Source: a virus. From it: a DNA stretch of 53,222 bases. The notes under the pieces are model-generated. The model searched no databases and was not told the origin of the DNA. It was given only the letters and a program-made list of their open reading frames with translations. Both the position numbers and the translations under genes were made by a program. This document shows, piece by piece, positions 3,101 to 53,222 of the stretch. How positions within the stretch are numbered: position 1 is the stretch's first letter; the number at the start of each line of letters is the position of its first letter. The DNA is taken from the IMG/VR virus record IMGVR_UViG_3300025141_000133, positions 1 through 53,222 of that record; one strand, written 5' to 3'.

Positions 3101-3822
3101 ACATATATGCTACTAAGTCCCCCTGTCACAATTCTTAAAGTATTATCAGCACTTTCATAAAATCCTGTATTTCCGTCACCAAATTTGAGAGCCAAATCAT
3201 TTTCTGCTCCAAGAGATGAAATCTTTACATTCCCAGCAAATGTGACAGCTTTAGTTTGTTTTGCTATTCTCATAGCTTCTGTCCAACTATTATTAGTATA
3301 TTCAGACTGAATTACAAAATCAATATATGCACCTACTCCGTCTGTACCAAATGCCCAATCTTGAGCAGTACTTGCAGTATCTATAACAATTTGTTTTAGC
3401 ATAGAAGTACCACTTGGTTGAGTGACATTTAAAATTCCTACACCATTTCCTCCTCCAATATGAAGAGTTTTAGTCGAAGCTATCTCTACATCACCAGCAA
3501 ATGTGGCACCTTGATGTGAGTCGAGAGTAAGAGCAAGTGCATTATCTGTGTAGAATTTTTGAGTATCTGCTGTAAAGTTTATATAATTAGTGGTATTGCC
3601 ACTATGTCTAATGTTCTCAGAAACATACAGAGTACCATCTACAGTTAAAGTACTACCAACTTGCAATGAACTTGCAAGGGATGCTGTGGCGATAGAGTTA
3701 GCATTAGTAAACAAGTCTACTGTGTTTGTAATAGTACTTACGGCTACATTATTTATTTTTCCAGTTACGTCACCTGTAAAAGCGTCGCCATAACCTTGTA
3801 GTCTTTTCCAACTTTTAGGCAT
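1..3822 (-). CDS. Long modular tail fiber, allele A (3' end cut by window edge)
   Basis: An uninterrupted minus-strand frame of exactly 1274 codons starts at ATG 3822 (MPKSWKRLQGYGD) and runs off base 1, so the stop lies outside. The first ~110 residues match the fiber at 51253-53022 almost exactly, and the last ~50 (VTGKVTAGNDAYNANPDVEL onward) match its C-terminal part. Between them lies a different central region with at least eight ATFAG-type repeats and about six VGIGTTSP-type repeats (near bases 630, 840, 1050, 1275, 1615 and 1825), as in many tail fibers and adhesins. It probably forms a trimeric receptor-binding fiber. Rejoining base 1 to 51477 adds 74 residues in frame, giving about 1348 aa. 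It overlaps the upstream 66-aa gene by 8 bases. No S74 chaperone domain is visible. Confidence 0.85.
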   Translation of the reverse strand, partial: MPKSWKRLQGYGDAFTGDVTGKINNVAVSTITNTVDLFTNANSIATASLASSLQVGSTLTVDGTLYVSENIRHSGNTTNYINFTADTQKFYTDNALALTLDSHQGATFAGDVEIASTKTLHIGGGNGVGILNVTQPSGTSMLKQIVIDTASTAQDWAFGTDGVGAYIDFVIQSEYTNNSWTEAMRIAKQTKAVTFAGNVKISSLGAENDLALKFGDGNTGFYESADNTLRIVTGGLSSIYVTSTVFGGLGQNQPTFNLSNNVSATVPSFYPRSSDTNTGIGSNGQDDLSLIAGGTEVLRLEPTLATFAGSVNSTGLMKVQPASGTLDMEGLRLENDTHQIWLSIYRGGSEKGRLSPHNSDIRLSAQDGNSAWVVDDSMAAGMEIADGGDATFTGNLTVDGTGTHSFDGMVQAKRGFQAGQALDIEGNTFGRTNSSSVAFGYRQDGSGNLMLLENSTGADMVTITNTGDATFAGTINSGAITSSGHGSFSSIGTSGMWVANVYDAGSSAYSRIQMGGTSKFIKFYTDGETSSDLCLTLDSSHNATFAGDITVSGGNITTTSVNGLYINGANIGDGNSSGNQRIGGEGRAHCGGYMRSYGGNALGKLEFYTGTSGNGTLALTINSSQNATFAGDVTVADDFEVSGNTIIKNDFEVSGDSYFNGGDVGIGTSSPGTILHIKGAGDKFRVDASDGTQILQIQEQSGQIADIIGPGNKDIYINKNSSGDVAIAAGGGNVGIGTTSPDVLLDVGDSDHGSAGNTGIQIQNSQAFATGYDGTNSNTFAGIQTVNHDDTSNRTPTGLTFVHRSTSSGIASILSTSKEADRADLRFITRGSDGINERMIIDSSGNVGIGTASPSYGLDVLYGTKETKLQVRNGGIYTHTQHNGGTPAFHIVDSDSDASRCALNVQSNAGSTNILYCQADGKVGIGTTSPGYPLSVSTSTAGRAIYVAQTYGSGTVYGALVEAEGSATTNIGLLCKASNATNNYALIASTGNVGIGTTSPAQLFEIKGSSADAYLQRWVSSDNATVGGFYEESDTSGRFFVCDAGGTIAVQLDSGGDSYFNGGNVGIGETSPLGKLHIKAGETDASPSTGADELVLEGTGDMGISFLSAISGAGIINFGDSNDNNIGSIEYQHGSNSMKFTTNTVAGLTIDSSQNATFGGNVVAAGSIKVSTTGGGRILNEVASATNPTLTPRNDQSATGIGGVGTSLYIISNGTTNSTYSGTTATFAGDVEVTGKVTAGNDAYNANPDVELAVFGRFYCDTYGYPFIVHDSSA
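136..3510 (-). repeat. CAAATGTGGC repeat family inside the fiber genes
   Basis: The core CAGCAAATGTGGC (minus-strand coding for ATFAG) recurs near 141, 1934, 2186, 2406, 2905 and 3498 in allele A, with variants near 345, 2645 and 3237, and near 51618, 52446 and 52701 in B with a variant near 52589. It is conserved at DNA level even in silent positions, more than the protein requires, and both allele boundaries fall on it. Confidence 0.85.
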
Positions 3823-4022
3823 TAGTATCCTCTTGTGCTATTTCATAATCAGGATCATTCTCAGCCAATGCATCAAATGTTCTCTTTAGTTTATCGTATA
3901 ATTTTACAACCCAATAATCTCTTGATAGTCGCATCTCTACATTTCCGATAAGTCGTTGTAGTATTTCGGACTCTTCCACCGATAATCTGATTGTTTTAAA
4001 TTTATGCTTATCCACTTTTATG
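3490..4022. repeat. Near-repeat of the right end (matches 52693-53222)
   Basis: Bases ~3490-4022 match ~52693-53222 (roughly 96% by eye, with one 3-base indel). They cover the 66-aa gene and the fiber N-terminus up to an ATFAG repeat. The window stops at the equivalent of base 4022, so the shared block probably continues outside it. Confidence 0.95.
3815..4015 (-). CDS. Small hypothetical protein, 66 aa (copy 1)
   Basis: A charged, mostly helical 66-aa protein lies immediately upstream of tail fiber A and overlaps its start by 8 bases, suggesting translational coupling. A copy with an identical protein sequence sits at 53015-53215 before tail fiber B. The few nucleotide differences between the copies are silent or lie in the overlap, so the protein is under purifying selection. 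I do not recognise a family. A fiber chaperone or assembly role is possible from position alone. Confidence 0.7.
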   Translation of the reverse strand: MDKHKFKTIRLSVEESEILQRLIGNVEMRLSRDYWVVKLYDKLKRTFDALAENDPDYEIAQEDTNA

Positions 4023-13354: not shown

Positions 13355-14833
13355 CTAAAGTACTGCCCAATCATAGTTTACAGCTGATTTGCTGGAATTA
13401 TCGGAAACTGAGGCTGTTTCAGAAGAATGAGGTGTATAAACCCCTTTCATAGCATAAAACAGCCCATCTAGCAAATCATCGTGCTTTCCTCGGGGATACA
13501 TCAAGAGTTCTCCCTTCAAGTCCTCCATTTTGTCATCTATGAATATTTTTTTCCTATAGAAGTGAGGTTCCATACTTTCTAACCTTACTGACTTATGAGT
13601 TCTAGGATTTTCTTTAATTCTTAAACCAGGGATAAATATATCCTTCTCTTGGCAACGACGTTCAAGATAGTCCCGTATCATCTCCTGGTAGCCAACAGAT
13701 TCGATTCTTACCTTCTGTGGCTTATATTTTTTGTACTGAGACATGATAGACTCAGCTAAATCTACTGGTTTTGCATGTTTTCGGTAATATGGGAGTATAT
13801 AACGATTATCATTGGCATCTATGGCAATTGTTACAATAGTAGAGTAATCTGCGGTCTGTTTTGTGCTAGAAGCAGGATCTACGCCTATAAACGTGTAAAC
13901 AGGTATATCTACACCATTTTTCAGCTTTAATGTGTGTAATCCATATTTACCAAGTTCAAGAGTGCCATCATAGTACTGTAAGTAGTCTTCGCTGAATAAT
14001 TGGTCTTCATCTCCTACTACTTCACACTGATATTCACGATAGAAGACTGATGAACGGTTAATATCAGAGAGCGAGATCTTTTTCTCCATAAGAGCATCAT
14101 AACTCAACTGTTCGGGCCAGAGCACTTTCTTTTTCTTATCATCTATGACAGCCTGATATCTTAACGTCTTCCACCCTTTCATGCCATCTAAGGTTTCAAC
14201 TATGCACCTTTGATGCTGTGGTGTGCCAATAACAATGACTCTTCCTGTTTGTGCATCAAGTGCAGGTTCAACAGACTGCAATAACCAACGTAAGTTCCAT
14301 TCCATTGCCGTATCTGTCTTAGTATTGTTCTCATCCTCTGGATCATCCAATACTATGAGCGTTGGACGCTGATCTCCGTACTTTAACCCTCTTATCTGCT
14401 GACCTGTACCTTTACAGGTGATAACAGAGCCATCTTTCAATTCTACGGTGTCTTTTGTCCATATCCTGGATGAATGCTGTCCCCAGTACCCAAACATCGT
14501 TCTCAAGGGCATAGAATACTCAAGTGCGTTCTTAATCGTGTGTAAAAGGTTCAAAGCGTGTCCCTGAGTCTTAGAAGAGAGTACTATTACCTTCTTTTTC
14601 TGGTCATCAAAGAAAATATGGTGTAATGGGAATACGCCAGCTGCAAGAGAAGTTTTAGCGTGTCCCCTAGGAGCAACAATGTTCATGCGTTTGTATTTCT
14701 TATTTATGAACATTTCACAGATGTCCTTATGAAATTCAGGTGACGGAAGAGAAAACATATTAGGTAAGCATGCTTTACCAAATTTTAGTATGTCACCCTT
14801 CAGTTGGTGCAGTATTTGGTCTTTCCTACTCAT
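13355..14833 (-). CDS. terL: Terminase large subunit (packaging ATPase-nuclease)
   Basis: This 492-aa motor protein pumps DNA into the prohead and cuts concatemers. Walker A is at residues 54-62 (APRGHAKTS) and Walker B at 159-166 (LIVLDDPE, with catalytic Glu). A GTPQH coupling motif follows. The RNase H-like nuclease begins at GVDPASS (Asp in the first metal site) and ends at KHDDLLDGLFYAM. The length is normal for the family. Its ATG overlaps the TerS stop as ATGA, and its end overlaps the longest form of the portal frame. Confidence 0.95.
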   Translation of the reverse strand: MSRKDQILHQLKGDILKFGKACLPNMFSLPSPEFHKDICEMFINKKYKRMNIVAPRGHAKTSLAAGVFPLHHIFFDDQKKKVIVLSSKTQGHALNLLHTIKNALEYSMPLRTMFGYWGQHSSRIWTKDTVELKDGSVITCKGTGQQIRGLKYGDQRPTLIVLDDPEDENNTKTDTAMEWNLRWLLQSVEPALDAQTGRVIVIGTPQHQRCIVETLDGMKGWKTLRYQAVIDDKKKKVLWPEQLSYDALMEKKISLSDINRSSVFYREYQCEVVGDEDQLFSEDYLQYYDGTLELGKYGLHTLKLKNGVDIPVYTFIGVDPASSTKQTADYSTIVTIAIDANDNRYILPYYRKHAKPVDLAESIMSQYKKYKPQKVRIESVGYQEMIRDYLERRCQEKDIFIPGLRIKENPRTHKSVRLESMEPHFYRKKIFIDDKMEDLKGELLMYPRGKHDDLLDGLFYAMKGVYTPHSSETASVSDNSSKSAVNYDWAVL

Positions 14834-16679: not shown

Positions 16680-16724
16680 GCAGTGTCTCATGTCGCTTGT
16701 ATGGCATGAGGCACTGCTTTTTTT
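16680..16724 (+). terminator. Strong intrinsic terminator
   Basis: A 13-bp stem (16680-16692 GCAGTGTCTCATG with 16705-16717 CATGAGGCACTGC, one G-U pair) encloses a 12-base loop and is followed by seven T's. It ends the 106-aa gene and would insulate the early operon from it. Confidence 0.92.
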
Positions 16725-28467: not shown

Positions 28468-31400
28468 TTATTTAGCTTCTCCTAGAGATTCTTCTGATAG
28501 TATGTCTTCTTCTGAACCTCTATGATACTGTATAATTCCCGTTGGTGCTAATGCTGGTTCTTCTCTTCTCTTAATAAGTTCTTTGCTTATCCTATGAATA
28601 GGAACACCAGTAGCTTTTTCTACCAGCATAGAGGGATATTCTAGTGTACCTTTGATATCTCTGGCTATTCTACCGAAAGGAAACCACGTCCATACATGAT
28701 AATCTGCAAATCTACCCCAATCGTTCTTAAGTAAAGCACCCAATGGCCCCAAGATATGTCTAGCAATAGGAGGAGAAACAGCCTGTAGAGGAGCTATTGG
28801 TTTTGGAAGAGTACCAAAGAAGGCACGGTCACGCTCATGCTCATTACCAAAAAGGAGATCAGACATATCCTGTACATAATTCCAAGGAGGTGGCAAAGTA
28901 GACTCAAACATAGTAAGCGGGAACGCAGTAGCCATCGAGAACATAAATAAATCTGCCAGCCCCATACGCTTGAAACGATCAAACTCAGGAGTACCAGGTT
29001 GATAATCATATAACTTAGCACCCTTATATATATCTTTTCTAAACTTTAATGAGTTCCAAGCCCATAACTGAAATCTTGAGTAAACTCTGCCAAGTGACGT
29101 TCTAGAAAAAGCAGGTCGAGCTGCATTATTATATAAATACTGAGTACCCTCTACACCCTTCATAGCCATCTCAATTAACCAGGGATCATCACGTTCAAAT
29201 GCTACCTTATTAGCAGATAGCACTTCCATAGCATTAATATAATGAGCTAAGAACGCTCTTCTTCTTAGCTTCTGCTCCATAAACTTCATAAACCATGCTG
29301 ACTTCTCTATCCAAGCCTTAGTAAAGCCATGCTTATTACCAATCTCAAATACTGAAGCTCTAGAGATCTCAGTACCATCCTTATTGACTCGTGCAATAAG
29401 ATCATTGATAAAGTTAGCACCCCTCTTACTTCGGAGAGCTGGGTTAGCTTTTAGTTCAGATCTTAAAAATGATTCAATAGCACCATGTCTCTGGGTAAAC
29501 GCAGTATAATAGTCCCAATCACGACTTTCAGGATCACCTTTCTTCATAGGAATGTTGGAATTAAGAAAATCAAGACTACCAGCACTTTTCCAGTGTCTAA
29601 AGCCAGTAGATATCAGAGTATTGAGAGAACCTCCCCAAAAGTTATTTGCCATTGTTTTTGTATGTGTTAATAATGTCATAAGCTCCCACTTAGCTTCTAA
29701 ATTAGAGAAAAGATTAAGCTTGTAGGAAAGATCGTCTTCATTTAGAGTACCATCTTCATTCTTCCTTACCCAACCCTTTCCACCAAACCACTTAGTTGCT
29801 ATCTTATCCATCTTTTTCTTAACATGTTGATCAGATAGTAAATAGTAAAGAGTATTCTTAACAGGAAAATTTCTGTCTGCTATCCAGTTTTCTGGCATAC
29901 TAGACTTATACCCTAAAATATCTCTTAAATGTAAACGTCCAAATCTTGCCCATTGTTTTACTTGATCGGGCTTAAAAGTAGTTTTTGCAGTTTCGGAAAA
30001 GTCTTCCATAATTCTATGACCTGAAAGAGTAAACATTAGATTATAGTTTGCTTTTATAATCTGATTTATATAAGTACGATAAGCATCCATATCTTTAGCC
30101 CAGCTAGGAATAACATGACCATGTCTCGCCCTTGAAAGAGCATGGGACGGTCTTCTAAAAAGTCCTATACGCTCTACGTCTTTTTCTGTCATACCTTCAG
30201 TCATAATAAATTCTGCCATAGGATGAAGAGCCCCACCATCATCAAGCTGTGCCCTCATTGCTGTTGTTTCTAAGCTTACTCTGAGCTTTGCTAGTGCGGT
30301 TGCTGACTTACCTTCTGCCTTCGCTTTTTCTATTCGAGCTTCAATATACTGATCTTTAATTTTCTTAATATGGTCTCTATGGGGCCAATAATGTTCTACT
30401 TCAATCTCTCCTACTCCCTTAAAAGCAAATTTCCCCTTGGGTTTGTTAGTTCTAGGATGAATAGTTTCATCCAGATACCTTGACATTATATTTGCTCGTT
30501 TATCGGGATGCATGTCTTTAATCCTAACGCCATTAATTGTCATACGAGAGACAGCATACTCGTTAGATAAACGTAAAAGGTTTTCTAGTCCTACCTTTTT
30601 TAAATCAGCTTCTTTCCCTTGAAAAAGTACATCAGATATTTCTCGCTTTATTATCTCAGAGAATTTAATGTTTCCACTTTTATCTCTATAAGGAGCCACC
30701 CATTCATCATAATCATACTCACCTTTTATCCACTGATCTTTCATATTTGTGTTCAGCTTAGTAATCTTTCTATTTATAATCTCAATTATTTCTTTTCCTG
30801 TTTTAGTAACACGACCTTTCTTTTTACCCTCACTAGGAAAGTTATATATCTTATCCTTATAAATTTCGTATAGTTCATCAGCTTCTTTAGCATATTTTTC
30901 ATATTGTGGTTCGTTATGTTTACTTGCTAATGCCCTTTCTCTATACGCTATAGCTATATTTACTAGATCAGGAGCATCTTTTTCTAAGAGAAAAAGAAAT
31001 TCAAACTCATCGTTTACTCTTTTAGCCCACCTATCTGTAGTATTGGAAAACCATAGATTAGATTTGATACCCATGTCAACCATGCGACCATAGTGAGCTA
31101 TAGGAATAGCTACGTCCTTCTTGTATACCTTCCCGTCAGCAGCACGTACAGGTACGTTCTTTCTAGCAAACCAATTCAAATTGTAAGCAAGGTGCTTCTG
31201 AGAAATAGTGTCAGGAAAAAAGTAAAAATGAAACCACTTAAGAGCATAACCAGGATCATCCTTAGCCATATCTAATAAGAAATTGCGACCATGAAGACCA
31301 CGCCAATAATTTATAAAGACTTTTACATCCTCAATAGTAGCAGCACCTGGGAGAACACCAGCACCAGGAATTGGAATACCAAAGGTACCGCGAAGAGAAG

Positions 31401-34400
31401 TAATGCCAGGAAAAGATTTACTTATATTATGAAGTAAAGTAGGATGTTTTTGAAATATCCAACGTAGTTCCTTTCGTAATCTTTTAACCTCACGTGTTTC
31501 ATTTACTATACGCTTGTCTCTTGTTTTTACATCTACCCAACTATAGTCTTCAATACCTTCCCACATCTTTTTACTCATTTCATCGGCTGATGCTTCTGCT
31601 TTATCTCCAGTAACTTCTTTCTCAACCTCTTTCATTATTCTTTGTACTTTTGGGTCTTTAGAAGGTTTTTTACCCATAAATACAGCAACTTCTTCGCTAG
31701 TTATTGGTTCTCCAAGCTTGGTAGCAAGTTTATGATAATCATTTAGCCACCCTTCTATAATAGGCCTTGGTACTACAGGAGATTCAAATCCAAACGATCT
31801 AAGGTTATCACTGTAAGTAGAACCACTCATTGTTCCGATAAAATATTCAAAAAATGCTCTTTTACCAGTTGCTTCTCCTATTGTCTCAACATAACTCCTA
31901 ATAAGTGCATTAATCTCGTTGATAACTGGTGCTTTTCTTTCTACTGTACGTTCCCGTTTCTTTTTATTAATATCTAACATTCTTTGAGCATACTGTGTTA
32001 ATAGTTTATCAGCAGTCTTAAATATTTCTGTCAATTCTTCTGTTGTACCACCAGAATCAAGAAATGCTTTATTAGCCTTGAATACACGTCTTACGCTAGT
32101 GAGAGCAGCTAATGTTTTTGAATAGTAATCTCTTTTCTTGTCAAGATCTTTTATATTCTTTAAGTATTCAATAGGATCTTCACCTCGAGCAGTAGCAACT
32201 TTAAATTGAAGTTTACTTAGTACTTTCTCTCTAAAATAAATTGCTTCTTCAGAAGTACCATGAACAATTTCCTCTAATACTTTGCCAGCTTTAACTATTT
32301 CCTTTTCAGAGAGCCATTTAGATGGATCAGGATCATGTCTAACATTCCTAATAGCAGTAGCACGATACTCATCTAATGGAGATAACAGATCTCTTTTTAT
32401 ACCTTTACTCTCTATAGCACCTTCAGCCTGCCCATATCCTAAATAAGAGTTAGCAAGATCAGACTTTTCAGAAAGAGTTAAGCTTCTTTTTTTTGTATAA
32501 TCCCATCCACTAACCGCTTTATTTAGTTCTTCCATGCCACGATATATAGTACCACGAATAAGACCTACTGACTTCTCATTTTCTAATACATTTGCTACTC
32601 TTTTACCATCAGGAGTTACTATTTCAATCTTATCAAAAGCAGCTTTAAAAAGTATCTCTGTAAGTTTCTCTGGGTTTATTATGCCAGTATATTTAGCTGC
32701 GTCCGCTGCCATGTTTTGGATAGCCCTAGCATATAACCTTAGTTTCTTTCCTCCGTCCTTATTTGGTTTTAATACTATATAGAGCTCACCTTTTGGGTAT
32801 TCAACACTAATATTCTTCTTGGCCGCTGCTCTGATGTTTTTACTTCTTTTCCACTGACCTCTAGGAATAGTAAATGGTATTCTTTTTTCCTTGCCTTCAG
32901 TAATATCCTGAAGCATATGAATTCTTCTCTTCAAGTTGTTTGCAAGTCCTAACAACTTGTTACCTTTACGTGCATTATGAGAAATATAGAATCTTGTTAG
33001 TGGGTCTAACATACCAAATGGTGTCTTAGCCATATCTAGGTCTAAGTTACCTTCTTCCGAGAATATTTCTTCTAATTCTCTAGTTACAGGTTTCAGGAAT
33101 TTTTTGCCTTTATGCCATTCTTTAGATTGTTTTTTGATACTTTCTTTAAGTGACTTCGGTAGGTTCTGGTAAATATGTACCTTATCAATATCTAAGTCCA
33201 TCCCACCAAGGTAACCCATGTCCTCTGGGTGAAGTAGGATACCAGCTCCTTTCCTACCTGTGAATCCCATAAATTTGAGTATCCTAGTGCCAGAAACAGA
33301 GTCAGATGGCACACGAATAATAGCAAGCTCAAGAGCCTCATTAACTGACTCTATATCTGTTTTGATAGCTTTCCTATCTTTTGTAGGTACTCTTCTGAGT
33401 TTATTCTTTAATTCTGTACGACGAGATAGAAGCTGATCTAAGGTAAGGTTGGCTCTTATTCCATCAGCTTTTACAATAGTATAATTAGTTACAAAATTCT
33501 TCCACTTATTGTTTAAATAAAACTCACCAGGCCTCAAATTGATATCCTTTTGTAACCAAGGATCGTAGGGGACACCAATAGCTGTGCCACTATGTCCTAC
33601 TACGGGTTTTACAATACGTCTAGTAGCATACTTGGCTAGTATGCGATCAGTAGTAAATCTTACTAACTTAAAGTTAATTATTGGAGCAGATAAGGCACCT
33701 GCTTCTCCTAACATTATATCTGCTCTTCTTATAATATCTGTATCGAGCTCGCTTTCTTCAAACGTATTATTATCTAGTTCTTCAGTACGATTAGTAATTG
33801 GTTTCCCCTGAGCATGTAATAACATTTTCCAAAACTTTCTATACAGTGGGCTATCAGAAACAGTAACACCATCTACTAAGTCTATGATGCGGTCTAAGCT
33901 AACCTTTTCAAATCGTTCCTCTAGAATTTCACCTTCTGCCTCAAGAAATTCCTTTATATGCTTCTCTTCTCCAGTTTTAATATACTTATCCCATTTAGCA
34001 TTAACTTCTGGATCACCTGCAACAGCAGGAAGCAGAACTTTCTCAACAGCCTCGGCTACCACTTTTTTATCTATCTGAGAATTGTTGGCATTGCCTAGTA
34101 ATTGTTTGACTATCTGTACATTACTGGTTGCTCTTCTGACATGTTCATAGTTCCCTGGACTAATAGTAAGCCCACTATGTGGTATTGTATATATTTCAGG
34201 ATTAGGATCTATAACCTTAGTGTTCTCTGTATAAAAGTCTAGTTCACCCTTTTCATTAAGGTTTATGTCATACTTACTTCTCCTACCTAATTGTTTAGTA
34301 GCCGTGTCAAATATATAACCGTGCATATTCTTAGATTGTAGTTCTGTTGAAGCTTCTTTACCTGCTGAAAAATAAGCATATTTACCTAGTATTAGCCCTC

Positions 34401-37400
34401 TTCGCTTTCCAAAAAGCGTCTTAAGGGTGCTAGCAGGAACTTGAATTTCAGGTGATGGACTCTGATCAGTATATCTCATGAATCCTTTAAGAACAGCTCC
34501 ATCCTTAGGAATGCCAGCGTCCTTCGCCATAGCATTGAAGACATCATCACGTACTAAAAATACACCGTCAAGATGTGCGTCATAAGATTTGTTAAGCATA
34601 TCTTTTAAAATTTCTCTGTTCCATGACATTTTACCAAGCTTACCAGGAATAGCGTTAACGATAGCTAATCTAAATCCGTCTTTCATATCAGGAATATGTT
34701 GATACATAAGAGGATCCATAGTTGGCTCACCAGAATCAATAATTTGCATCCTTTGATTAAGTGTAATAGGGTCAGTAATAAATTGTCCTTCTCCTGATGT
34801 ATTATATTTAATTATGTCTTTTAGTGGCATACCACCATTCATTCTTTCTATAACTGCAGCAGTTGAATAGACAGACTGTGCATATATCTCTTCTGATTCC
34901 CTGTTCTCTATTTTCTTTCCTTTCTCTCTACCGTGGTTTATCATTATCCTAAATTTAGCAAGACCTTTATTGTACTGTGATCTTGCATTGTTGACAACAT
35001 TAGGATCGCTTATTTCCTCTATGAATGCGCGTGCCCAAGCAACAGCATTCTCAGGTTCAATCTGATGCGGAATAAAAATCATACGATTCTTATCTTTTAC
35101 ACCACTTAAGTATGTATAGCCACTTTTATGCTCTGAAAGAAAGATATTAGCTAAAGGATATCTCTTTTCTACTGTTGTAAAACCGCCTCTTTCAGTGGCT
35201 TCTTTACGGTTAACAATGAAATCGAATCCATCAAACTCCATGTCAAATAATTTTTCAACACTATAACGACGTTTAGGTGTCCCGTTACGGTTCCTTCCTA
35301 CAGTATCTACCCATTCTGCGTATTCTACTACTTTTCTAATTGATTTCTTAACACCTTCAGCTAACGGTAGCATCTCAAGGAATGATTGTGGCCGATCTCG
35401 TACTATTATATGAGCTTTTTGGCTCATATCTCCTCTGTCCTTTGTGTCTAGGAGAGTAAAATAACTTTGTGTTTCCCTCAGACTAGTCCTACGCCTGTTA
35501 AAGTACCGTCTTATACCATTCCATTCTTGGCTACCCTCTTCAAATGAAACTTCCCAACTACTTTTAAGATCATCCATAAACTTAAAAAAGTCTATGTTTT
35601 GTGTGATGTCTTGCGTTCTTTTATCCATCCATAACTGTATAGATTTCCTAGAACTTGTGGGATTAGCTTTCTGAATTGTACTTATTGTAGTTTCTAAAGA
35701 GTTATCAAATATATAAGAGTTTGTGTCATGATCCTCCACAGTATCTTTTATTTCTCTATTTTTTGTTTGTAAAGAGGTTTCAGCTGGTCTGTCTTCTGGT
35801 GATGTTACTTGCTCAGATGAAGCTAATTCTGGTTTAGCTTTATCAGGCTTGTTTATTAATTCAAATTGAAATTGCCATCTATTCTTATTCTGTTGGTATC
35901 CGCTTTTATCCCAACCTTCTAATTTTGACCATTCTTTAGGAGTAATATCACTTACTTTATAAGGAGCTTTAGTAACTCTGACAGTCACAGCTTTCTTAGA
36001 GTTTTTATCGTAAAAATCAAGTATATCGCCTACTTTTAAATTTTTAACATCTGATAAGTTTCTAGTAGTAGCAGTTCTATCTCCAGATAGAATTAAATCC
36101 ATAGTAGATTTCCCACTAAATTCTGGTCGCATCTTTCTACCGCCAGTACCATCCTTAAAATGCATTGGCATGGAGGGGGCGTCTCTGTGGAGGATAGATA
36201 TGGGGGCTGGAGCTTCTGCAGATATAGAAATAGCATCACGAAGAACACTTTTCATATTCGCTATTGCATCTGGATCATTAGCAATAGCACGATTACCAGC
36301 CACATTAAGAGTCTTAATATTATTTTCTTTTAACCAGCTAGATAATTCTTCTACAGTTGGATTAGCAATATAAGGTTTACCAATCTCAAGGGATTGATTC
36401 TTAGTAAGTTTTGAACCAGGAGAAGTTTCTTTACCAAACAAGACAGTACCATCAGAATCTTTTATATTTTGTATTGTACGTTTACGATAAACCTTAGGAT
36501 CAGCTTCGCCTTCTACCAACCCATATTCCTTTAATAATTTAGGCTTCTTTCCCTTAGAAGTTTGAAATCCAGGAGGAGCAGTACCACCTGTCTCCAATCC
36601 TATCTCTTTACCTACTTCAAGACCTATCTGATCTGCCCCAATCTGGCCCCCAGAAATAATCTTAGTTACACCTGCAGGTTTGACTTCAGCTGGAGTAGCT
36701 GCTGCTGCTTCTTCTTTTTCTACAACACGATTAATCTCTTCAACCCCTTTGCGCCATTTTGCAACTACTTCTTTAGGAGTTTTCTCTTTAATTTCTCTGG
36801 TATTATAATACTCTTCAGCGCTTTCTTTACCTTCGGTTCGTAATGTATATTCATACATTTCTAACATTTTCTTTATACTATGAACATTTATTCCTCTTTG
36901 AGCCCTTGAGTATCCCCAACTTGCAGGGTAGTCTATAAACTCATTCCGTATTGGCTCAGGCAATTCAGCAAGTTCAGCGGGAGACATAGTCTGTATTTTT
37001 TGGTTTAGATCAGCAAATTCTTGTGCTAATTTTTGAGCTTTAGGGTTATTTTTGACTGTTGGATGATCAGAGTTCCAGTTTATTTGCCGAATATCACTGT
37101 AACCAATATCTAATTCTAATGTCTCGGCATTTAATCGAGCAATCTCATCTATTATTTCTTGATTTTTTACGGATGGTTTTTTAGGAGATGGTGGAGGTTC
37201 AATTAATTCTCCTGTTTTAATGTCTCTTATATCGCCTTCAGCTGTTGCTACTACTCCTTCTTCTCCAATAGCTTTGAGATGTTCATAAGGATGCCAGCCA
37301 GTTTCCATATTATCATACCGTACAACCCAGCCCACTGCTGTTTCTCTTATCCTTTGAACTTGTGTGCCCTCCATCTCTTTTATCCCTTCAGGAAGGTCAA

Positions 37401-38700
37401 CTAAAATTGCGTTAGGGTTAAATTCAGGTGCATCAGGTATAAATTTTTGTTTTATGAAGCTCTCTTTCTTTTTTCCTTCAACGTCAACAATAACTTTATA
37501 GCCTTTTTGGGTTTTCTTGATGATTTCTGCTTTCTTGCCTGAATGTATTCCACCTATTACATCTACTATAGCTCCTTGAGGTACAATCCCTAGACTCTCA
37601 AACTCTTGTAGAAATGCCTCAGTCATATCAGCACGGTTTTCACTGGCCTTTAGAATTTCTTGTCTAGTTCCTTCTGGGAGATCTGACCAGCCAGTCATCT
37701 TAGTAGGATCTTGCCAATCTTCTCGGGACATAAAGTTTGGGTTCTCAGGATCGTTCATTATTTTGGCTGCGTGTACCTTTTCTGCTGGTACAGCATGAGC
37801 ACCAAACCATGCACCTAATAGATATTCATAAACCTGTAGCTCTGTGGCATCTCCTCTCATTGTTGAGGGTAATCCTGTAAAAGCAGCACCTGCCATACCT
37901 CTTACTACTTTCTCTGCTGTTACTACAACTTGTGGATCTGTATCCTTTAGAAGTTTTCCAAGTTTAACATAGTTGCCTATGCCACCAAACACAGCACCCA
38001 TTTGAGCACCGCCTATAAATCCTTCCATCATAGCATCAGTACCCTGTTGCCAGTTAGAAACTGCTGAAGCTGCAGCAAGATGAAACCCACCACCTACGAT
38101 AGCCCTGCCAGCCGTTCCTTCACGTAAAAACTTAACAGCTTTGAGTGCTTCTACGTTTCCTAGTAGCTTACCGACGCCTTTAGTGGCTACGTCAGCAGCT
38201 ATCATAGGTACAGATGGTATCTTTACACCCCATTTACTAGGTCTGACCTTTAGGACATCTTTTATAGCGCCAGGAATCTTGGTCTTACCTAAAGTTGCTT
38301 CAGCTAGACTTAATGTTTTAGCACTTTTAGCAGCCTTAGTAGCAAGAGAAGCCCCGCCCATAGCTGTTCTACCCAATAAACCTAGACCAGGTATAAAACC
38401 TACAAAGCCAAGTAAATGACCTATATTACGTGATATTGCTTCTGCTGTGTTTCGGGGATCGTCACCAGTATGGATTGTAGTAAGGCCAGAAGCAAAACCA
38501 GAAAGTGCCTGACCAACCGTATTAAAAAGGTTAAAGTCAGCACCATCAGGGTCTTGTTCTATATTTACACCGAGATTTTGAGCTCGTTGTTGGAGTGCTT
38601 CGACTTGTTCCTGAGTAAACCAATCAGGATGTTCTCGATAGAGACGACTATCGTGTAAAAGTTGCTTCTCTAAGAGTTCTTGTTGATAAGAAGATAACAT
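28468..38700 (-). CDS. Giant polyvalent virion protein with predicted two-barrel RNA polymerase domain
   Basis: A 3410-aa frame, last in the late block. N-terminus (1-330): hydrophobic, Gly/Ala-rich internal-virion-like region, related in plan to the 272-aa protein upstream. ~370-420: KOW-like (AIVDVIGGIHSGKKAEII). ~678-830: SLOG of the cpYpsA type (ISGGQIGADQIGLEVG at 682, later TLNVAGNRAI). ~857-970: ASCH-like (MDLILSGDRTATTR). ~1690-1900: RNA-polymerase-like: KPVVGHSG (K1698), R1796-V-P1798, LLHP, then D1835-L-D1837-I-D1839-K, matching the RxP...LHP...DxDGD plan of beta' and the DFDID form of crAss/YonO enzymes. The C-terminal ~1200 residues are charged, helical and unrecognised. Probably packaged and ejected with DNA to transcribe early genes. 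The RNAP call is by motif only. Confidence 0.8.
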   Translation of the reverse strand: MLSSYQQELLEKQLLHDSRLYREHPDWFTQEQVEALQQRAQNLGVNIEQDPDGADFNLFNTVGQALSGFASGLTTIHTGDDPRNTAEAISRNIGHLLGFVGFIPGLGLLGRTAMGGASLATKAAKSAKTLSLAEATLGKTKIPGAIKDVLKVRPSKWGVKIPSVPMIAADVATKGVGKLLGNVEALKAVKFLREGTAGRAIVGGGFHLAAASAVSNWQQGTDAMMEGFIGGAQMGAVFGGIGNYVKLGKLLKDTDPQVVVTAEKVVRGMAGAAFTGLPSTMRGDATELQVYEYLLGAWFGAHAVPAEKVHAAKIMNDPENPNFMSREDWQDPTKMTGWSDLPEGTRQEILKASENRADMTEAFLQEFESLGIVPQGAIVDVIGGIHSGKKAEIIKKTQKGYKVIVDVEGKKKESFIKQKFIPDAPEFNPNAILVDLPEGIKEMEGTQVQRIRETAVGWVVRYDNMETGWHPYEHLKAIGEEGVVATAEGDIRDIKTGELIEPPPSPKKPSVKNQEIIDEIARLNAETLELDIGYSDIRQINWNSDHPTVKNNPKAQKLAQEFADLNQKIQTMSPAELAELPEPIRNEFIDYPASWGYSRAQRGINVHSIKKMLEMYEYTLRTEGKESAEEYYNTREIKEKTPKEVVAKWRKGVEEINRVVEKEEAAAATPAEVKPAGVTKIISGGQIGADQIGLEVGKEIGLETGGTAPPGFQTSKGKKPKLLKEYGLVEGEADPKVYRKRTIQNIKDSDGTVLFGKETSPGSKLTKNQSLEIGKPYIANPTVEELSSWLKENNIKTLNVAGNRAIANDPDAIANMKSVLRDAISISAEAPAPISILHRDAPSMPMHFKDGTGGRKMRPEFSGKSTMDLILSGDRTATTRNLSDVKNLKVGDILDFYDKNSKKAVTVRVTKAPYKVSDITPKEWSKLEGWDKSGYQQNKNRWQFQFELINKPDKAKPELASSEQVTSPEDRPAETSLQTKNREIKDTVEDHDTNSYIFDNSLETTISTIQKANPTSSRKSIQLWMDKRTQDITQNIDFFKFMDDLKSSWEVSFEEGSQEWNGIRRYFNRRRTSLRETQSYFTLLDTKDRGDMSQKAHIIVRDRPQSFLEMLPLAEGVKKSIRKVVEYAEWVDTVGRNRNGTPKRRYSVEKLFDMEFDGFDFIVNRKEATERGGFTTVEKRYPLANIFLSEHKSGYTYLSGVKDKNRMIFIPHQIEPENAVAWARAFIEEISDPNVVNNARSQYNKGLAKFRIMINHGREKGKKIENRESEEIYAQSVYSTAAVIERMNGGMPLKDIIKYNTSGEGQFITDPITLNQRMQIIDSGEPTMDPLMYQHIPDMKDGFRLAIVNAIPGKLGKMSWNREILKDMLNKSYDAHLDGVFLVRDDVFNAMAKDAGIPKDGAVLKGFMRYTDQSPSPEIQVPASTLKTLFGKRRGLILGKYAYFSAGKEASTELQSKNMHGYIFDTATKQLGRRSKYDINLNEKGELDFYTENTKVIDPNPEIYTIPHSGLTISPGNYEHVRRATSNVQIVKQLLGNANNSQIDKKVVAEAVEKVLLPAVAGDPEVNAKWDKYIKTGEEKHIKEFLEAEGEILEERFEKVSLDRIIDLVDGVTVSDSPLYRKFWKMLLHAQGKPITNRTEELDNNTFEESELDTDIIRRADIMLGEAGALSAPIINFKLVRFTTDRILAKYATRRIVKPVVGHSGTAIGVPYDPWLQKDINLRPGEFYLNNKWKNFVTNYTIVKADGIRANLTLDQLLSRRTELKNKLRRVPTKDRKAIKTDIESVNEALELAIIRVPSDSVSGTRILKFMGFTGRKGAGILLHPEDMGYLGGMDLDIDKVHIYQNLPKSLKESIKKQSKEWHKGKKFLKPVTRELEEIFSEEGNLDLDMAKTPFGMLDPLTRFYISHNARKGNKLLGLANNLKRRIHMLQDITEGKEKRIPFTIPRGQWKRSKNIRAAAKKNISVEYPKGELYIVLKPNKDGGKKLRLYARAIQNMAADAAKYTGIINPEKLTEILFKAAFDKIEIVTPDGKRVANVLENEKSVGLIRGTIYRGMEELNKAVSGWDYTKKRSLTLSEKSDLANSYLGYGQAEGAIESKGIKRDLLSPLDEYRATAIRNVRHDPDPSKWLSEKEIVKAGKVLEEIVHGTSEEAIYFREKVLSKLQFKVATARGEDPIEYLKNIKDLDKKRDYYSKTLAALTSVRRVFKANKAFLDSGGTTEELTEIFKTADKLLTQYAQRMLDINKKKRERTVERKAPVINEINALIRSYVETIGEATGKRAFFEYFIGTMSGSTYSDNLRSFGFESPVVPRPIIEGWLNDYHKLATKLGEPITSEEVAVFMGKKPSKDPKVQRIMKEVEKEVTGDKAEASADEMSKKMWEGIEDYSWVDVKTRDKRIVNETREVKRLRKELRWIFQKHPTLLHNISKSFPGITSLRGTFGIPIPGAGVLPGAATIEDVKVFINYWRGLHGRNFLLDMAKDDPGYALKWFHFYFFPDTISQKHLAYNLNWFARKNVPVRAADGKVYKKDVAIPIAHYGRMVDMGIKSNLWFSNTTDRWAKRVNDEFEFLFLLEKDAPDLVNIAIAYRERALASKHNEPQYEKYAKEADELYEIYKDKIYNFPSEGKKKGRVTKTGKEIIEIINRKITKLNTNMKDQWIKGEYDYDEWVAPYRDKSGNIKFSEIIKREISDVLFQGKEADLKKVGLENLLRLSNEYAVSRMTINGVRIKDMHPDKRANIMSRYLDETIHPRTNKPKGKFAFKGVGEIEVEHYWPHRDHIKKIKDQYIEARIEKAKAEGKSATALAKLRVSLETTAMRAQLDDGGALHPMAEFIMTEGMTEKDVERIGLFRRPSHALSRARHGHVIPSWAKDMDAYRTYINQIIKANYNLMFTLSGHRIMEDFSETAKTTFKPDQVKQWARFGRLHLRDILGYKSSMPENWIADRNFPVKNTLYYLLSDQHVKKKMDKIATKWFGGKGWVRKNEDGTLNEDDLSYKLNLFSNLEAKWELMTLLTHTKTMANNFWGGSLNTLISTGFRHWKSAGSLDFLNSNIPMKKGDPESRDWDYYTAFTQRHGAIESFLRSELKANPALRSKRGANFINDLIARVNKDGTEISRASVFEIGNKHGFTKAWIEKSAWFMKFMEQKLRRRAFLAHYINAMEVLSANKVAFERDDPWLIEMAMKGVEGTQYLYNNAARPAFSRTSLGRVYSRFQLWAWNSLKFRKDIYKGAKLYDYQPGTPEFDRFKRMGLADLFMFSMATAFPLTMFESTLPPPWNYVQDMSDLLFGNEHERDRAFFGTLPKPIAPLQAVSPPIARHILGPLGALLKNDWGRFADYHVWTWFPFGRIARDIKGTLEYPSMLVEKATGVPIHRISKELIKRREEPALAPTGIIQYHRGSEEDILSEESLGEAK

Positions 38701-38722: not shown

Positions 38723-39541
38723 TTATGGAATCATCGGTAATAAGCCAAGTAATCCAAGTCCAGCTTTTTCCTCTGGAGTTCCACCCATTATACTAGGAAC
38801 AGCTGCTAGTCCACTTAGTTGCCAGCCCGAATAAGGTATTGTAGAGGTAACTGGCCCTTGTCCTAGTGTAACACCAGGTCTTCTTACAGGCATCATAAAC
38901 CCACCTATTGCACCTTGTATACCACTTCCTATTGGAGCAAAGATATCTCCTTCTCCTATTTGTTCCAGTGCTTGCTGACTACCAAACATACCTGCACTTA
39001 CCATAGCACGTCTTGTTCTATCACCACGTTCAAGCAACCATTTAGCTGCTTTCTGAGCATTTTCATGTGTTGCTGCGTCATTCAGTGCCTTTGCTACTGA
39101 ACCAGTAGTAGTGTCAGCACCCTTCTTAGCCATCTTAGATATCGTTTTAGCAAGAGTTCCTTCAGCTTTCAACAAGCTTTTACCTGCTGCCAGTGATGAC
39201 AAACCTTTCATTCCTGATGTTGCTAGCTTCTTACCAACTGCAAATGGGCCTGTCATTAAACCCGCAAGGCTACCACCCCAACCTATATATTTTTCAAATT
39301 CGGTAAGTGGTTGTGTCATCATAGAGTCAGGAAATAATCCAAATGTCATTGTGTCAGCAAGATTAGAGAAGAATACTTTAGCTGCCCTAGTTGTGCTGAA
39401 CTCTGGCTGAAATTGTATTCCTGCAGCTGCTGCTGCTGTTGCTATTGATGCTATCTCTTCATCTGTATAGGCACCTGGGTCATTTTTATAGGAACGTATA
39501 ATGAGTGACAGCGTCTCGTGTTCGCTTAGTTTTTTAATCAT
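38723..39541 (-). CDS. Internal/ejection virion protein, 272 aa
   Basis: Hydrophobic, Gly/Ala-rich protein directly before the giant gene (22-base gap). Its first ~120 residues share a plan with the giant's N-terminus: Y-x-x-DP-x-x-(Y/F)T-x-E-(E/Q), a GI-(Q/E)-(F/Q) strand, then a hydrophobic segment ending in a (G)-P-x-G region. I infer that the two are paralogous parts of an internal core, probably forming or entering a DNA-ejection conduit through the membrane. AAAGGAAAAC precedes the ATG. Confidence 0.65.
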   Translation of the reverse strand: MIKKLSEHETLSLIIRSYKNDPGAYTDEEIASIATAAAAAGIQFQPEFSTTRAAKVFFSNLADTMTFGLFPDSMMTQPLTEFEKYIGWGGSLAGLMTGPFAVGKKLATSGMKGLSSLAAGKSLLKAEGTLAKTISKMAKKGADTTTGSVAKALNDAATHENAQKAAKWLLERGDRTRRAMVSAGMFGSQQALEQIGEGDIFAPIGSGIQGAIGGFMMPVRRPGVTLGQGPVTSTIPYSGWQLSGLAAVPSIMGGTPEEKAGLGLLGLLPMIP

Positions 39542-46750: not shown

Positions 46751-46863
46751 TTTGGTTTCCCCTTGATATTCTTCTTTCTTCTACTATCTGGTGGTGTTCC
46801 CTGCCATGGGCCACCGACCTTATTACTAGTAACAATGTTTTTATCTTTGTCCTTCTTTGCCAT
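46747..46863 (-). CDS. 38-aa basic microprotein
   Basis: ATG 46863 shares its first base with the metallophosphoesterase stop (TAATG) and its TGA overlaps the next ATG, so it is locked between two genes by coupling at both ends. Lys/Asp-rich start (MAKKDKDKNIVTSNK), a GGPWQGTPPD turn and a basic end. Being only 38 aa it was easily missed. Function unknown. Confidence 0.6.
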   Translation of the reverse strand: MAKKDKDKNIVTSNKVGGPWQGTPPDSRRKKNIKGKPK

Positions 46864-47822
46864 TACATATAGAATGGGTGCCAAGTACCTGTAGTCTTGG
46901 CAACTCCATTTTCATTAACATAAACGTCTACTATCCAAAATCCTGTATGTGATGACAATCTCTTGCCTCTCATCCAAGCTGTCTGTCTCTGAAATGCTCC
47001 AGCACTATAACAGTGTATGTGTCTATCGAAGAGATACATACTCTTGTGTACATGACCAAACAACATAACATTCGGTTTCTGTCCGCCAGTAAGAGATTCT
47101 ATTATCTTCTGTATCCTGTAACTAACTGCATAACTACTGCCATCTTCTCCATGCCACAACCTAATAGTAGCACTATCCCCGAGAGCAATAGTTCCCTCGT
47201 CATGACCAAGAAATTCAGCGTGTTCGATAGCATCACATATATCCTTTACTATTATAGCACCATTACTTTTTATATACCACCTGTCATGATTACCATCAAT
47301 GATATATAAAGGGGCAGGACACCTAGCCATATATTCAATAGCTGTTTTCTTTTGTTCATGATATCCTATTTTATCAAGTTCATATACATGGCCAGCCCTG
47401 TTGGACATCCCTTCAGTTAAGTCTCCTACCTGACAGATGATGTCACATCCTTCTTTTTCAAATTCTGAAAATGCAATGTCAACAAGCTCATAAAGACAGT
47501 ATTTACTGCCGAAATGAATGTCACCCATTATACCTATTCTTGTTCTGTCGCCCTGTAGATCAATAACTGGTATACTAGGTTGACCTGGTGTAACCCTACC
47601 ACCTTTTGCAATAGCTTCGAGTTCTTTTGGCGAATATTGCTCAGATATCCTTCGTAGTGCTGCACTTTTATCGATATCGGGTATATCAAACCTTTGTTTT
47701 GATTCTCGTATGTAACGCCTTAGTGTACGTGGTTTGATACCATAACTATCACAAGTAATGTCTTCACCATGAAGCAAATAATATCCAAGTATCTCTTCTA
47801 CTCTTTCCTTACTTATTGCCAT
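46863..47822 (-). CDS. Calcineurin-like metallophosphoesterase with N-terminal HTH
   Basis: 319 aa. Residues 1-45 (VEEILGYYLLHGEDITCDSY, then GIKPRTLRRYIRE) look like a helix-turn-helix. The catalytic domain shows the full metallophosphatase set: D101-x-H103 (MGDIHFGS), GD134 (VGDLTEG), GNHD180, H224 (WHGED) and GHVH256-259. It should cleave phosphoesters, possibly nucleic acid or a nucleotide. It sits in the late block between lysis and virion genes, an unusual place for a replication nuclease such as SbcD. Substrate unknown. Confidence 0.8.
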   Translation of the reverse strand: MAISKERVEEILGYYLLHGEDITCDSYGIKPRTLRRYIRESKQRFDIPDIDKSAALRRISEQYSPKELEAIAKGGRVTPGQPSIPVIDLQGDRTRIGIMGDIHFGSKYCLYELVDIAFSEFEKEGCDIICQVGDLTEGMSNRAGHVYELDKIGYHEQKKTAIEYMARCPAPLYIIDGNHDRWYIKSNGAIIVKDICDAIEHAEFLGHDEGTIALGDSATIRLWHGEDGSSYAVSYRIQKIIESLTGGQKPNVMLFGHVHKSMYLFDRHIHCYSAGAFQRQTAWMRGKRLSSHTGFWIVDVYVNENGVAKTTGTWHPFYM

Positions 47823-51268: not shown

Positions 51269-53022
51269 ATGTCGCCAGATGAACCACCAGAAGGTGCATC
51301 ATCGTCAACATATATTGTAGGACTATTATCAATATCAGAAGTAATTGTAGCCATGTTAGAAACACCGCTCATTTGCCCATCAATCGTAATTCCACCACCA
51401 AATTCGGTCGCGCCCAGGTTCCCTTCTGGGTCTATTTTAACACAATCACCCCCATCGACTTCAAACAAGTTATCACCAGCTGAGGAATCATGAACAATAA
51501 AAGGATAACCATATGTATCACAATAGAACCTGCCAAAAACTGCAAGTTCTACATCTGGATTCGCATTATAAGCATCATTACCAGCAGTAACCTTCCCAGT
51601 AACCCCTACATTCCCAGCAAATGTGGCGTTGCCAGATGTATTTATACTGAATTTCTCAGACCCAGATACTTTGATCTTATGACTTGAACCATTTAATTCT
51701 AATGCTTTGTATGAGCCTCCACCACTTCTATCATATGCTAAAATCTTACCAGTATTACTTGTATACCCCAATTCTATGCCACCACCAGTGACTGTTGGAG
51801 TACCATTACCAGTAATTTGGACTCTTCCAACAGTAGATACAATACCAGTCAATGTAAGGTCACCATTTGTTGCTAGTAGGAAAGCAGGCCATGCTCCCCC
51901 CTGTGAAGGGCCTATGTAGTATTCACTTCCATCTACACCAGCGTTATCCGAATCTGTAAGCCCAGTGGACCAAATTGTAGAGCCAGCAGTTTTGTAATTA
52001 GTGCATCCGAAGCGACTTGTGGCACCTCTATCAATGCTAACCACCGCATGGGCACTTGAATCTATAGTAAATCCTCCTGCAGTTGTATGGACCGTCCCGC
52101 ATGTCAGAATGATTTCATTTTCCACATCATCAACCATCAGGAATGTTTCATTCGCTTCTCCATCCCAATCACCAAGATAAAACTTCCAATCTCCTTGACT
52201 ATCATCAGAGGCGAAATCTAAGAACAAGCCAGCGTCTACATCTTGTGTGCCAGTCACTATTTTACTAGCATCATTGACACCAGTTATTTGTAACTTCGTA
52301 CCAGCACTCGCACCAGCAACCAAACCTAAGGAATCAGTACCAAGAAAACACAGTCCAGTATTTGTGTCACTGCTTCGAAAGATAACTGGTGAACCAAGAC
52401 TGCCATTAGCACTTAGTCCAAGACCAGCAGCAGTAATAGTCCCAGCAAATGTGGCGTTGCTAGAAGTCTCCAAGGTCGCTGCGCTTAAGTGCCCACCAGA
52501 TGCTATACCACCAGAAATATCAACATCGCCAGTGATATCCATTCCATCACCGCCTTCAATCTTCCCATCTACAGCTACCTCATCACCAAATGTGGTGGCG
52601 CTCTCGCATTCTAATCCACCTGTGATTAAAACATCACCACCAGCTTCAGCTTCAAAACATTCATCAACTGTTAAACTACCATCTACAGCTACCTCACCAG
52701 CAAATGTGGCGCCTTGATGTGCGTCGAGAGTAAGAGTAAGTGCATTATCTGTGTAGAATTTTTGAGTATCTGTTGTAAAGTTTATATAATTATTGGTATC
52801 GCCACTATGTCTAATGTTCTCAGAAACATACAGAGTACCATCTACAGTTAAAGTACTACCAACTTGCAATGAACTTGCAAGGGATGCTGCGGCGACAGAG
52901 TTAGCATTAGTAAATAAGTCTACTGTGTTTGTAATAGTACTTACGGCTACATTATTTATTTTTCCAGTTACGTCACCTGTAAAAGTGTCGCCATAACCTT
53001 GTAGTCTTTTCCAACTAGGCAT
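51253..53022 (-). CDS. Tail fiber, allele B, 589 aa
   Basis: Starts MPSWKRLQGYGDTFTG (one Lys shorter than allele A). The first ~110 residues and the last ~125 match allele A, but the centre is different: two VAVDG-type repeats, DMDITGDVDISGG, and unique beta segments, with far fewer repeats than A. Overlap with the adhesin-like gene downstream and the 66-aa gene upstream. The C-terminus ends DAPSGGSSGDIWLEY. Expected to bind a host receptor, with a different specificity from A if the central region is the binding part. Confidence 0.85.
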   Translation of the reverse strand: MPSWKRLQGYGDTFTGDVTGKINNVAVSTITNTVDLFTNANSVAAASLASSLQVGSTLTVDGTLYVSENIRHSGDTNNYINFTTDTQKFYTDNALTLTLDAHQGATFAGEVAVDGSLTVDECFEAEAGGDVLITGGLECESATTFGDEVAVDGKIEGGDGMDITGDVDISGGIASGGHLSAATLETSSNATFAGTITAAGLGLSANGSLGSPVIFRSSDTNTGLCFLGTDSLGLVAGASAGTKLQITGVNDASKIVTGTQDVDAGLFLDFASDDSQGDWKFYLGDWDGEANETFLMVDDVENEIILTCGTVHTTAGGFTIDSSAHAVVSIDRGATSRFGCTNYKTAGSTIWSTGLTDSDNAGVDGSEYYIGPSQGGAWPAFLLATNGDLTLTGIVSTVGRVQITGNGTPTVTGGGIELGYTSNTGKILAYDRSGGGSYKALELNGSSHKIKVSGSEKFSINTSGNATFAGNVGVTGKVTAGNDAYNANPDVELAVFGRFYCDTYGYPFIVHDSSAGDNLFEVDGGDCVKIDPEGNLGATEFGGGITIDGQMSGVSNMATITSDIDNSPTIYVDDDAPSGGSSGDIWLEY

Positions 53023-53215
53023 TAGTATCCTCCTGTGCTATTTCATAATCAGGATCATTCTCAGCCAATGCATCAAATGTTCTCTTTAATTTATCATATA
53101 ATTTTACAACCCAATAATCTCTTGATAGTCGCATCTCTACATTTCCGATAAGTCGTTGTAGTATTTCGGACTCTTCCACCGATAATCTGATTGTTTTAAA
53201 TTTATGCTTATCCAC
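53015..53215 (-). CDS. Small hypothetical protein, 66 aa (copy 2)
   Basis: Protein sequence identical to the copy at 3815-4015, with a few silent base differences. Overlaps the start of tail fiber B by 8 bases. The identical protein with differing silent sites implies separation long enough for base changes but with protein conservation, or exchange between related genomes. Confidence 0.7.
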   Translation of the reverse strand: MDKHKFKTIRLSVEESEILQRLIGNVEMRLSRDYWVVKLYDKLKRTFDALAENDPDYEIAQEDTNA

Positions 53216-53222
53216 TTTTATG

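Follow-up and report, generated by a model that had tools for sequence, protein, structure and literature searches.

A predicted single-chain two-barrel RNA polymerase inside the giant protein of small uncultured phages

The giant gene and its polymerase motifs

The window analyzed here is the complete viral record IMGVR_UViG_3300025141_000133 of IMG/VR, a stretch of 53,222 nucleotides. Its minus strand harbors an open reading frame for a giant protein of 3410 residues, the middle of which appears by sequence to be a separate lineage, in a new carrier protein, within the known single-chain two-barrel RNA polymerases. We regard the lineage as separate because no family library matched it and its identity to solved relatives is only ~10%. 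The gene and the elements of its polymerase module are as follows.

28468..38700, minus strand: giant protein, 3410 residues, carrying the RNA polymerase module centrally (open reading frame and translation)
31951..35538, minus strand: RNA polymerase module as modelled, residues 1055-2250 (AlphaFold, Foldseek, VIA)
34231..34569, minus strand: predicted double-psi barrel A region, residues 1378-1490 (strand pattern, invariant D1378-G1379 and lysines)
33169..33525, minus strand: predicted double-psi barrel B region, residues 1726-1844 (strand pattern, hhalign to crAss RNA polymerases)
33307..33315, minus strand: R1796-V-P1798 (R and P invariant across homologues)
33184..33198, minus strand: putative catalytic triad D1835-L-D1837-I-D1839 (aspartates invariant)
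32896..33003, minus strand: bridge-helix-like helix of 36 residues, 1900-1935 (model helix 846-881; contains NKLLGLANNL)
32638..32748, minus strand: trigger-loop-like helix-loop-helix, residues 1985-2021 (model helices 931-945 and 956-967)

A first-pass annotation, made from the letters alone, had pointed to a two-barrel polymerase signature at 33100-33620. Its elements were all located in the translation, in the order it had given: RVPSD at residues 1796-1800, LLHPEDMGY with its tyrosine at 1822-1830 and DLDIDK at 1835-1840, where DLDID is the sole DxDxD in 3410 residues. The interval spans RxP to DxDxD, but the NKLLGLANNL segment also named (residues 1914-1923, ~32932-32961) lies just below it. 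A looser pattern, RxP at most 55 residues before any DxDxD, occurred in 77 of 1160 shuffled open reading frames. Furthermore, single-sequence searches of PHROGs, Pfam and PDB with the window protein matched no polymerase, as would be expected if the motif had arisen fortuitously in a tail protein or an internal protein of the virion.

Residues 1300-2160 were compared by tblastn with 50,697 phage records without any prompt from the motif, yielding three weak matches (E ~1-2). Two of these (E = 2) were records of one phage, the crAss-like cr271_1, and fell in a 4620-residue protein belonging to a family labelled putative RNA polymerase catalytic subunit in crAss records. The cr271_1 protein was aligned in register, exactly on YRIPTEGKQSVCIMKVVGFTDDALGSTIVVPDDWVSQTGSDFDID, the RxP...SDFDID segment of its giant polymerase. 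Because of this match, and because homologues that were identified independently of the motif retain it, the motif set is beyond chance. A chance match was thus given a next to negligible probability and, with motif conservation, the predicted fold (model, Foldseek and VIA) and the profile results described below, is refuted in practice.

Relatives and conservation of the putative active site

The giant protein of the window as a query recovered near-identical copies only. Relatives were reached through the large terminase, which lies on the same strand.

13355..14833, minus strand: large terminase, used to find relatives (PHROG 38, E 2.9e-86)

This query led to 80 viral contigs with 48-100% identity. 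Comparison of the polymerase region with 30 of these terminase-relative records revealed seven divergent homologues, 25-38% identical, and RxP...GxDxDxD was intact in all seven. Invariant among them were D1378-G1379, K1405, a Y..R..P block ending at P1699, R1796, P1798, S1803-G1804, the three aspartates and D2000.

An alignment-based scan gave 526 matching stretches, 335 of which were relatives; with the DxDxD segment as the search pattern, finding it conserved in this set is uninformative. RxP lay outside this pattern and was nevertheless present in 80/80 of the homologues retrieved through DxDxD only. An independent set was assembled from giants retrieved solely through their C-terminal block (372 relatives, of which 80 were kept, plus two from bacterial genomes). 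RxP followed by GxDxDxD was found in 58/58 of those with enough sequence, at 20-30% overall identity. Across all these sets, no homologue that covers the site lacks the motif. Most members read G-G-A-D-L-D-G-D. Complete homologues, read from stop to stop, comprised 2807-3420 residues (n = 59). The family is encoded in at least 372 viral contigs; the window protein, which might have been a one-off, belongs to a family spread over hundreds of them. Tblastn of a family member against the 50,697 phage records gave no match at 1e-5, and the C-terminal part gave none at E 1. No description of the family was found in the open-access literature; subscription papers and preprints lay outside this search.

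In 42 sequences, D1378, G1379, K1405, K1440, K1469, R1796, P1798, the aspartate triad and D2000 (D636 in the invariant-column analysis) were invariant. Judged by sequence, these are the residues expected of a catalytic core. Some members carry unusual spacer letters in the triad (DKDSD, DKDAD), which might speak for a decayed relic that has lost catalysis and persists as a structural element. Such a relic was considered very improbable and was rejected, since 58/58 members retain RxP and the full set of aspartates despite their low overall identity and the three barrel A lysines vary in none of the 42 sequences.

Predicted fold and comparison with known polymerases

An AlphaFold model of residues 1055-2250 was built from an alignment of 53 homologous sequences (mean predicted local distance difference test score 79.1, predicted template modelling score 0.83). 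Foldseek against PDB gave as top match 6vr4_A, the virion-packaged RNA polymerase of the crAss-like phage phi14:2, with E 1.5e-11, followed by QDE-1 (E 1.3e-6), cellular polymerase beta' chains and the phage AR9 enzyme. VIA-align 2 ranked QDE-1 (Z 15.4 over 586 residues) and plant RDR2 (Z 13.4) before P74-26 gp62 (Z 13.0), 6vr4 (Z 12.1 over 782 residues) and a phage gp64 polymerase (8f72, Z 10.2), and all 50 chains that it listed were RNA polymerases of the two-barrel type. The best-matching predicted viral proteins were unnamed A0A516* entries and crAss-like giants. Profile-profile comparison (hhalign) with six crAss polymerases gave E 7.8e-6 and 4.2e-6, the match covering only barrel B, up to the triad, and the helix that precedes it. 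The profile score of 49 stood against 15-19 for controls made by reversal or column shuffling; masking model residues 778-786 lowered it to 33 and left the register unchanged. The two-barrel fold of residues 1055-2250 is thus a well supported prediction. The first-pass annotation had proposed to look for such a fold and for matches to polymerase profiles; by predicted fold the region belongs to the two-barrel superfamily, crAss-type enzymes matched in the profile comparison, and its two-barrel interpretation is supported by both together with the conserved motif.

The model apparently holds two double-psi barrels in one chain, judged by strand pattern and by the ranges of the alignments to QDE-1, 6vr4 and P74-26 gp62, which extend over both regions. 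Barrel A was assigned, as a prediction, from the order of elements, the strands and the range aligned to RNA polymerases, and it contains the invariant K1405, K1440 and K1469. Its lysines had been sought near K1698; this site was rejected in favor of residues 1378-1490, ~300 residues earlier, and the K1698 block with its invariant P1699 lies in the segment leading into barrel B. Likewise, NKLLGLANNL is not a post-loop segment but sits within the long helix 1900-1935. The bridge-helix-like and trigger-loop-like elements were assigned from order and shape; the latter, which includes the invariant D2000, has a presumed role.

RNA polymerases of several types served for comparison. Like phi14:2 gp66 (PDB 6vr4), the virion-packaged enzyme of a crAss-like phage, the module is a single chain with DxDxD and an upstream RxP in the same register; gp66 is its best Foldseek match, and 782 residues can be aligned. 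Furthermore, crAss records often carry the polymerase within very long proteins. However, identity to gp66 in the structural alignment is ~10%, barrel A finds no match in crAss polymerases at the sequence level, and crAss-like phages have genomes of ~97 kb as compared to ~50 kb for phages of the giant-protein family. In the latter, the polymerase lies in the middle of a protein of 2800-3400 residues, the ends of which are unrelated.

P23-45 gp96 is a giant virion protein in which a two-barrel polymerase is fused to a tape measure protein; virion location and transcription of pre-early genes were both shown for it (PMC10770324). The fusion of such a polymerase within a giant phage protein is shared. 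In contrast to gp96, with its tape measure, N-terminal polymerase and clampless flat shape, the polymerase here is central, and no tape-measure, tail-tube or long-tail family was recognized among the larger proteins scanned. The solved structures nearer to the module are QDE-1, gp66 and P74-26 gp62. YonO of SPbeta is a single-chain, distant relative of the cellular multi-subunit enzymes (PMC5467207), as the module also appears to be, but it is a stand-alone protein of ~100 kDa whereas the module is embedded in 3410 residues.

The N4 virion RNA polymerase has ~3500 residues and is T7-like, with a fold unrelated to two-barrel enzymes. The giant protein resembles it in size class and in its presumed role as an injected early polymerase. 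A T7-like N4 homologue was nevertheless rejected: the model matches two-barrel enzymes only, no T7-like fold is among the Foldseek and VIA matches listed, and Pfam and PHROGs gave no T7-type family match.

QDE-1 and RDR2 lead the VIA ranking (Z 15.4 and 13.4) with alignments that cover barrel A, barrel B and the following helices, and the G-G-A-D-L-D-G-D reading of many members is a further likeness; they are eukaryotic RNA interference polymerases, whereas the module is viral and lies within a giant protein. Fold likeness alone does not fix the template, and the module could act on another substrate, as an RNA-dependent polymerase like QDE-1/RDR or as a PolD-like primase or DNA polymerase. 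The VIA ranking (Z 13.0-15.4), a sub-threshold Pfam RdRP match (PF05183, E 0.0058) in one of 42 members and the fact that no DNA polymerase gene was recognized among the larger open reading frames scanned would fit such an activity. We consider it improbable, as by far the best Foldseek match is a DNA-dependent phage polymerase and the genome encodes a separate primase-helicase.

Genome context, hosts and proposed role

Outside the polymerase module, these blocks were defined in the giant protein.

37741..38700, minus strand: conserved N-terminal block, residues 1-320, with Gly-rich hydrophobic stretches (conservation profile)
36238..36660, minus strand: inserted SLOG-type domain (cpYpsA), residues 681-821 (Pfam PF12694, E 2.9e-22)
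28546..29733, minus strand: most conserved, helical C-terminal block, residues 2990-3385 (conservation profile, predicted fold)

Residues 320-1050 form a variable stretch. The cpYpsA domain before the polymerase was found in one of the 42 members scanned; after it, residues ~866-960 resemble an ASCH domain by eye only. The part C-terminal to the polymerase is helical and ends in the block 2990-3385, and the most conserved parts of the giant protein lie outside the polymerase.

Just upstream of the giant gene, 38723-39541 gave a very weak SseC-like match (E 0.01), and its product is perhaps, by sequence, a second membrane-active virion protein. The genes for terminase, portal, major head protein, metallophosphoesterase, GH108 lysozyme and the giant protein are all located on the minus strand, and P22-like podovirus portals occur among relatives. 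At 46863-47822, a calcineurin-like phosphoesterase with an extra N-terminal part is encoded on the structural-gene strand. A primase-helicase and a Sak4-type annealing protein are encoded on the plus strand (~23.5-27 kb), and a strong stem-loop of 16 pairs with a T run (16680-16717) lies just before the first plus-strand gene. The contig ends carry near-identical stretches (1-155 and 51478-51631, 98%; 3486-4022 and 52689-53222, 97%) of tail-fibre-like genes whose middles differ. These are either a pair of paralogous fibre genes or, if the genome is circular and its fibre variable, the overlap of its ends.

Relatives were detected on two bacterial genome contigs, which would point to a Bacteroidetes and a Prochlorococcus host. 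JAHISV010000010.1, from a Bacteroidetes metagenome-assembled genome, holds a phage block at ~92-142 kb together with aconitase, citrate lyase and TonB-receptor genes; as the block shares its contig with Bacteroidetes host genes, this suggests a prophage belonging to the present group. QCPL01000010.1 (46 kb), from a Prochlorococcus single-cell genome, carries a relative with the triad DKDSD, which could be a co-sorted virus.

Taken together, residues ~1055-2250 very probably constitute a single-chain, DNA-dependent two-barrel RNA polymerase that is packaged in the virion, injected and used for transcription of early genes. The motifs, their conservation, the agreement of the predicted fold with known RNA polymerases and the strand shared with the structural genes are what we observe; catalysis, DNA as template, packaging, injection and early promoters are what we infer. 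Packaging and injection are proposed because phi14:2 gp66 and P23-45 gp96 provide precedents. The giant protein would enter the cell together with the DNA or before it, and its helical N- and C-terminal parts would serve packaging and passage through the envelope. The triad D1835/D1837/D1839 of barrel B would bind Mg and barrel A would supply the invariant lysines. The injected polymerase may then transcribe the rightward early plus-strand genes (16.8-27.8 kb) before the phage turns to the host enzyme; the larger open reading frames of the window that were scanned revealed no further RNA polymerase.

Several results weigh against this proposal. A hmmsearch of PDB with the family profile returned coiled-coil and unrelated noise and no polymerase, and scans of the 42 members against Pfam, NCBIfam and PHROGs named no RNA polymerase except for the one weak RdRP match. 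With sequence-profile PDB searches and family libraries silent, the link to polymerases rests on fold prediction and profile-profile comparison. The predicted fold of the C-terminal part (mean score 67 in the local distance difference test) had no credible PDB match; hence its role in ejection is a guess. A search for repeats in the early region gave no clear promoter family; sigma-70-like sites there numbered 49 compared with 50 in shuffles.

Alternatively, the polymerase may be real but synthesized during infection and employed at a later stage, like the non-virion gp64 of P23-45 (PMC10770324). P74-26 gp62 is among the closer structures, and packaging of the giant protein is itself a proposal. 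This alternative appears unlikely, though less so than the others: the gene lies on the terminase strand in all seven other records holding both, co-oriented with structural genes; the polymerase is part of a protein of 2800-3400 residues most conserved outside it, as expected for a virion component; and P23-45 gp64 differs in being short and stand-alone.

If the injected polymerase reading holds, virion-carried two-barrel polymerases, known from crAss-like phages and Thermus phage P23-45, would gain a third, hitherto unannotated lineage, present in at least 372 public viral contigs inside proteins of 2800-3400 residues of ~50-kb phages. The module is predicted to be a complete, though highly divergent, counterpart of the cellular RNA polymerase core. 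Since it occurs in hundreds of related uncultured viruses, these small viruses as a group probably bring their own RNA polymerase into the host cell. More tentatively, early transcription in these phages might depend on a single injected polypeptide that follows a promoter code of its own, of a lineage widespread in small podovirus-like phages of several host phyla and close to the stock of the eukaryotic RNA interference polymerases (QDE-1/RDR). The set of minimal RNA polymerases would thereby be widened, with a bearing on the origin of cellular and RNA interference polymerases, and the prediction is that many uncultured phages begin infection independently of host RNA polymerase.
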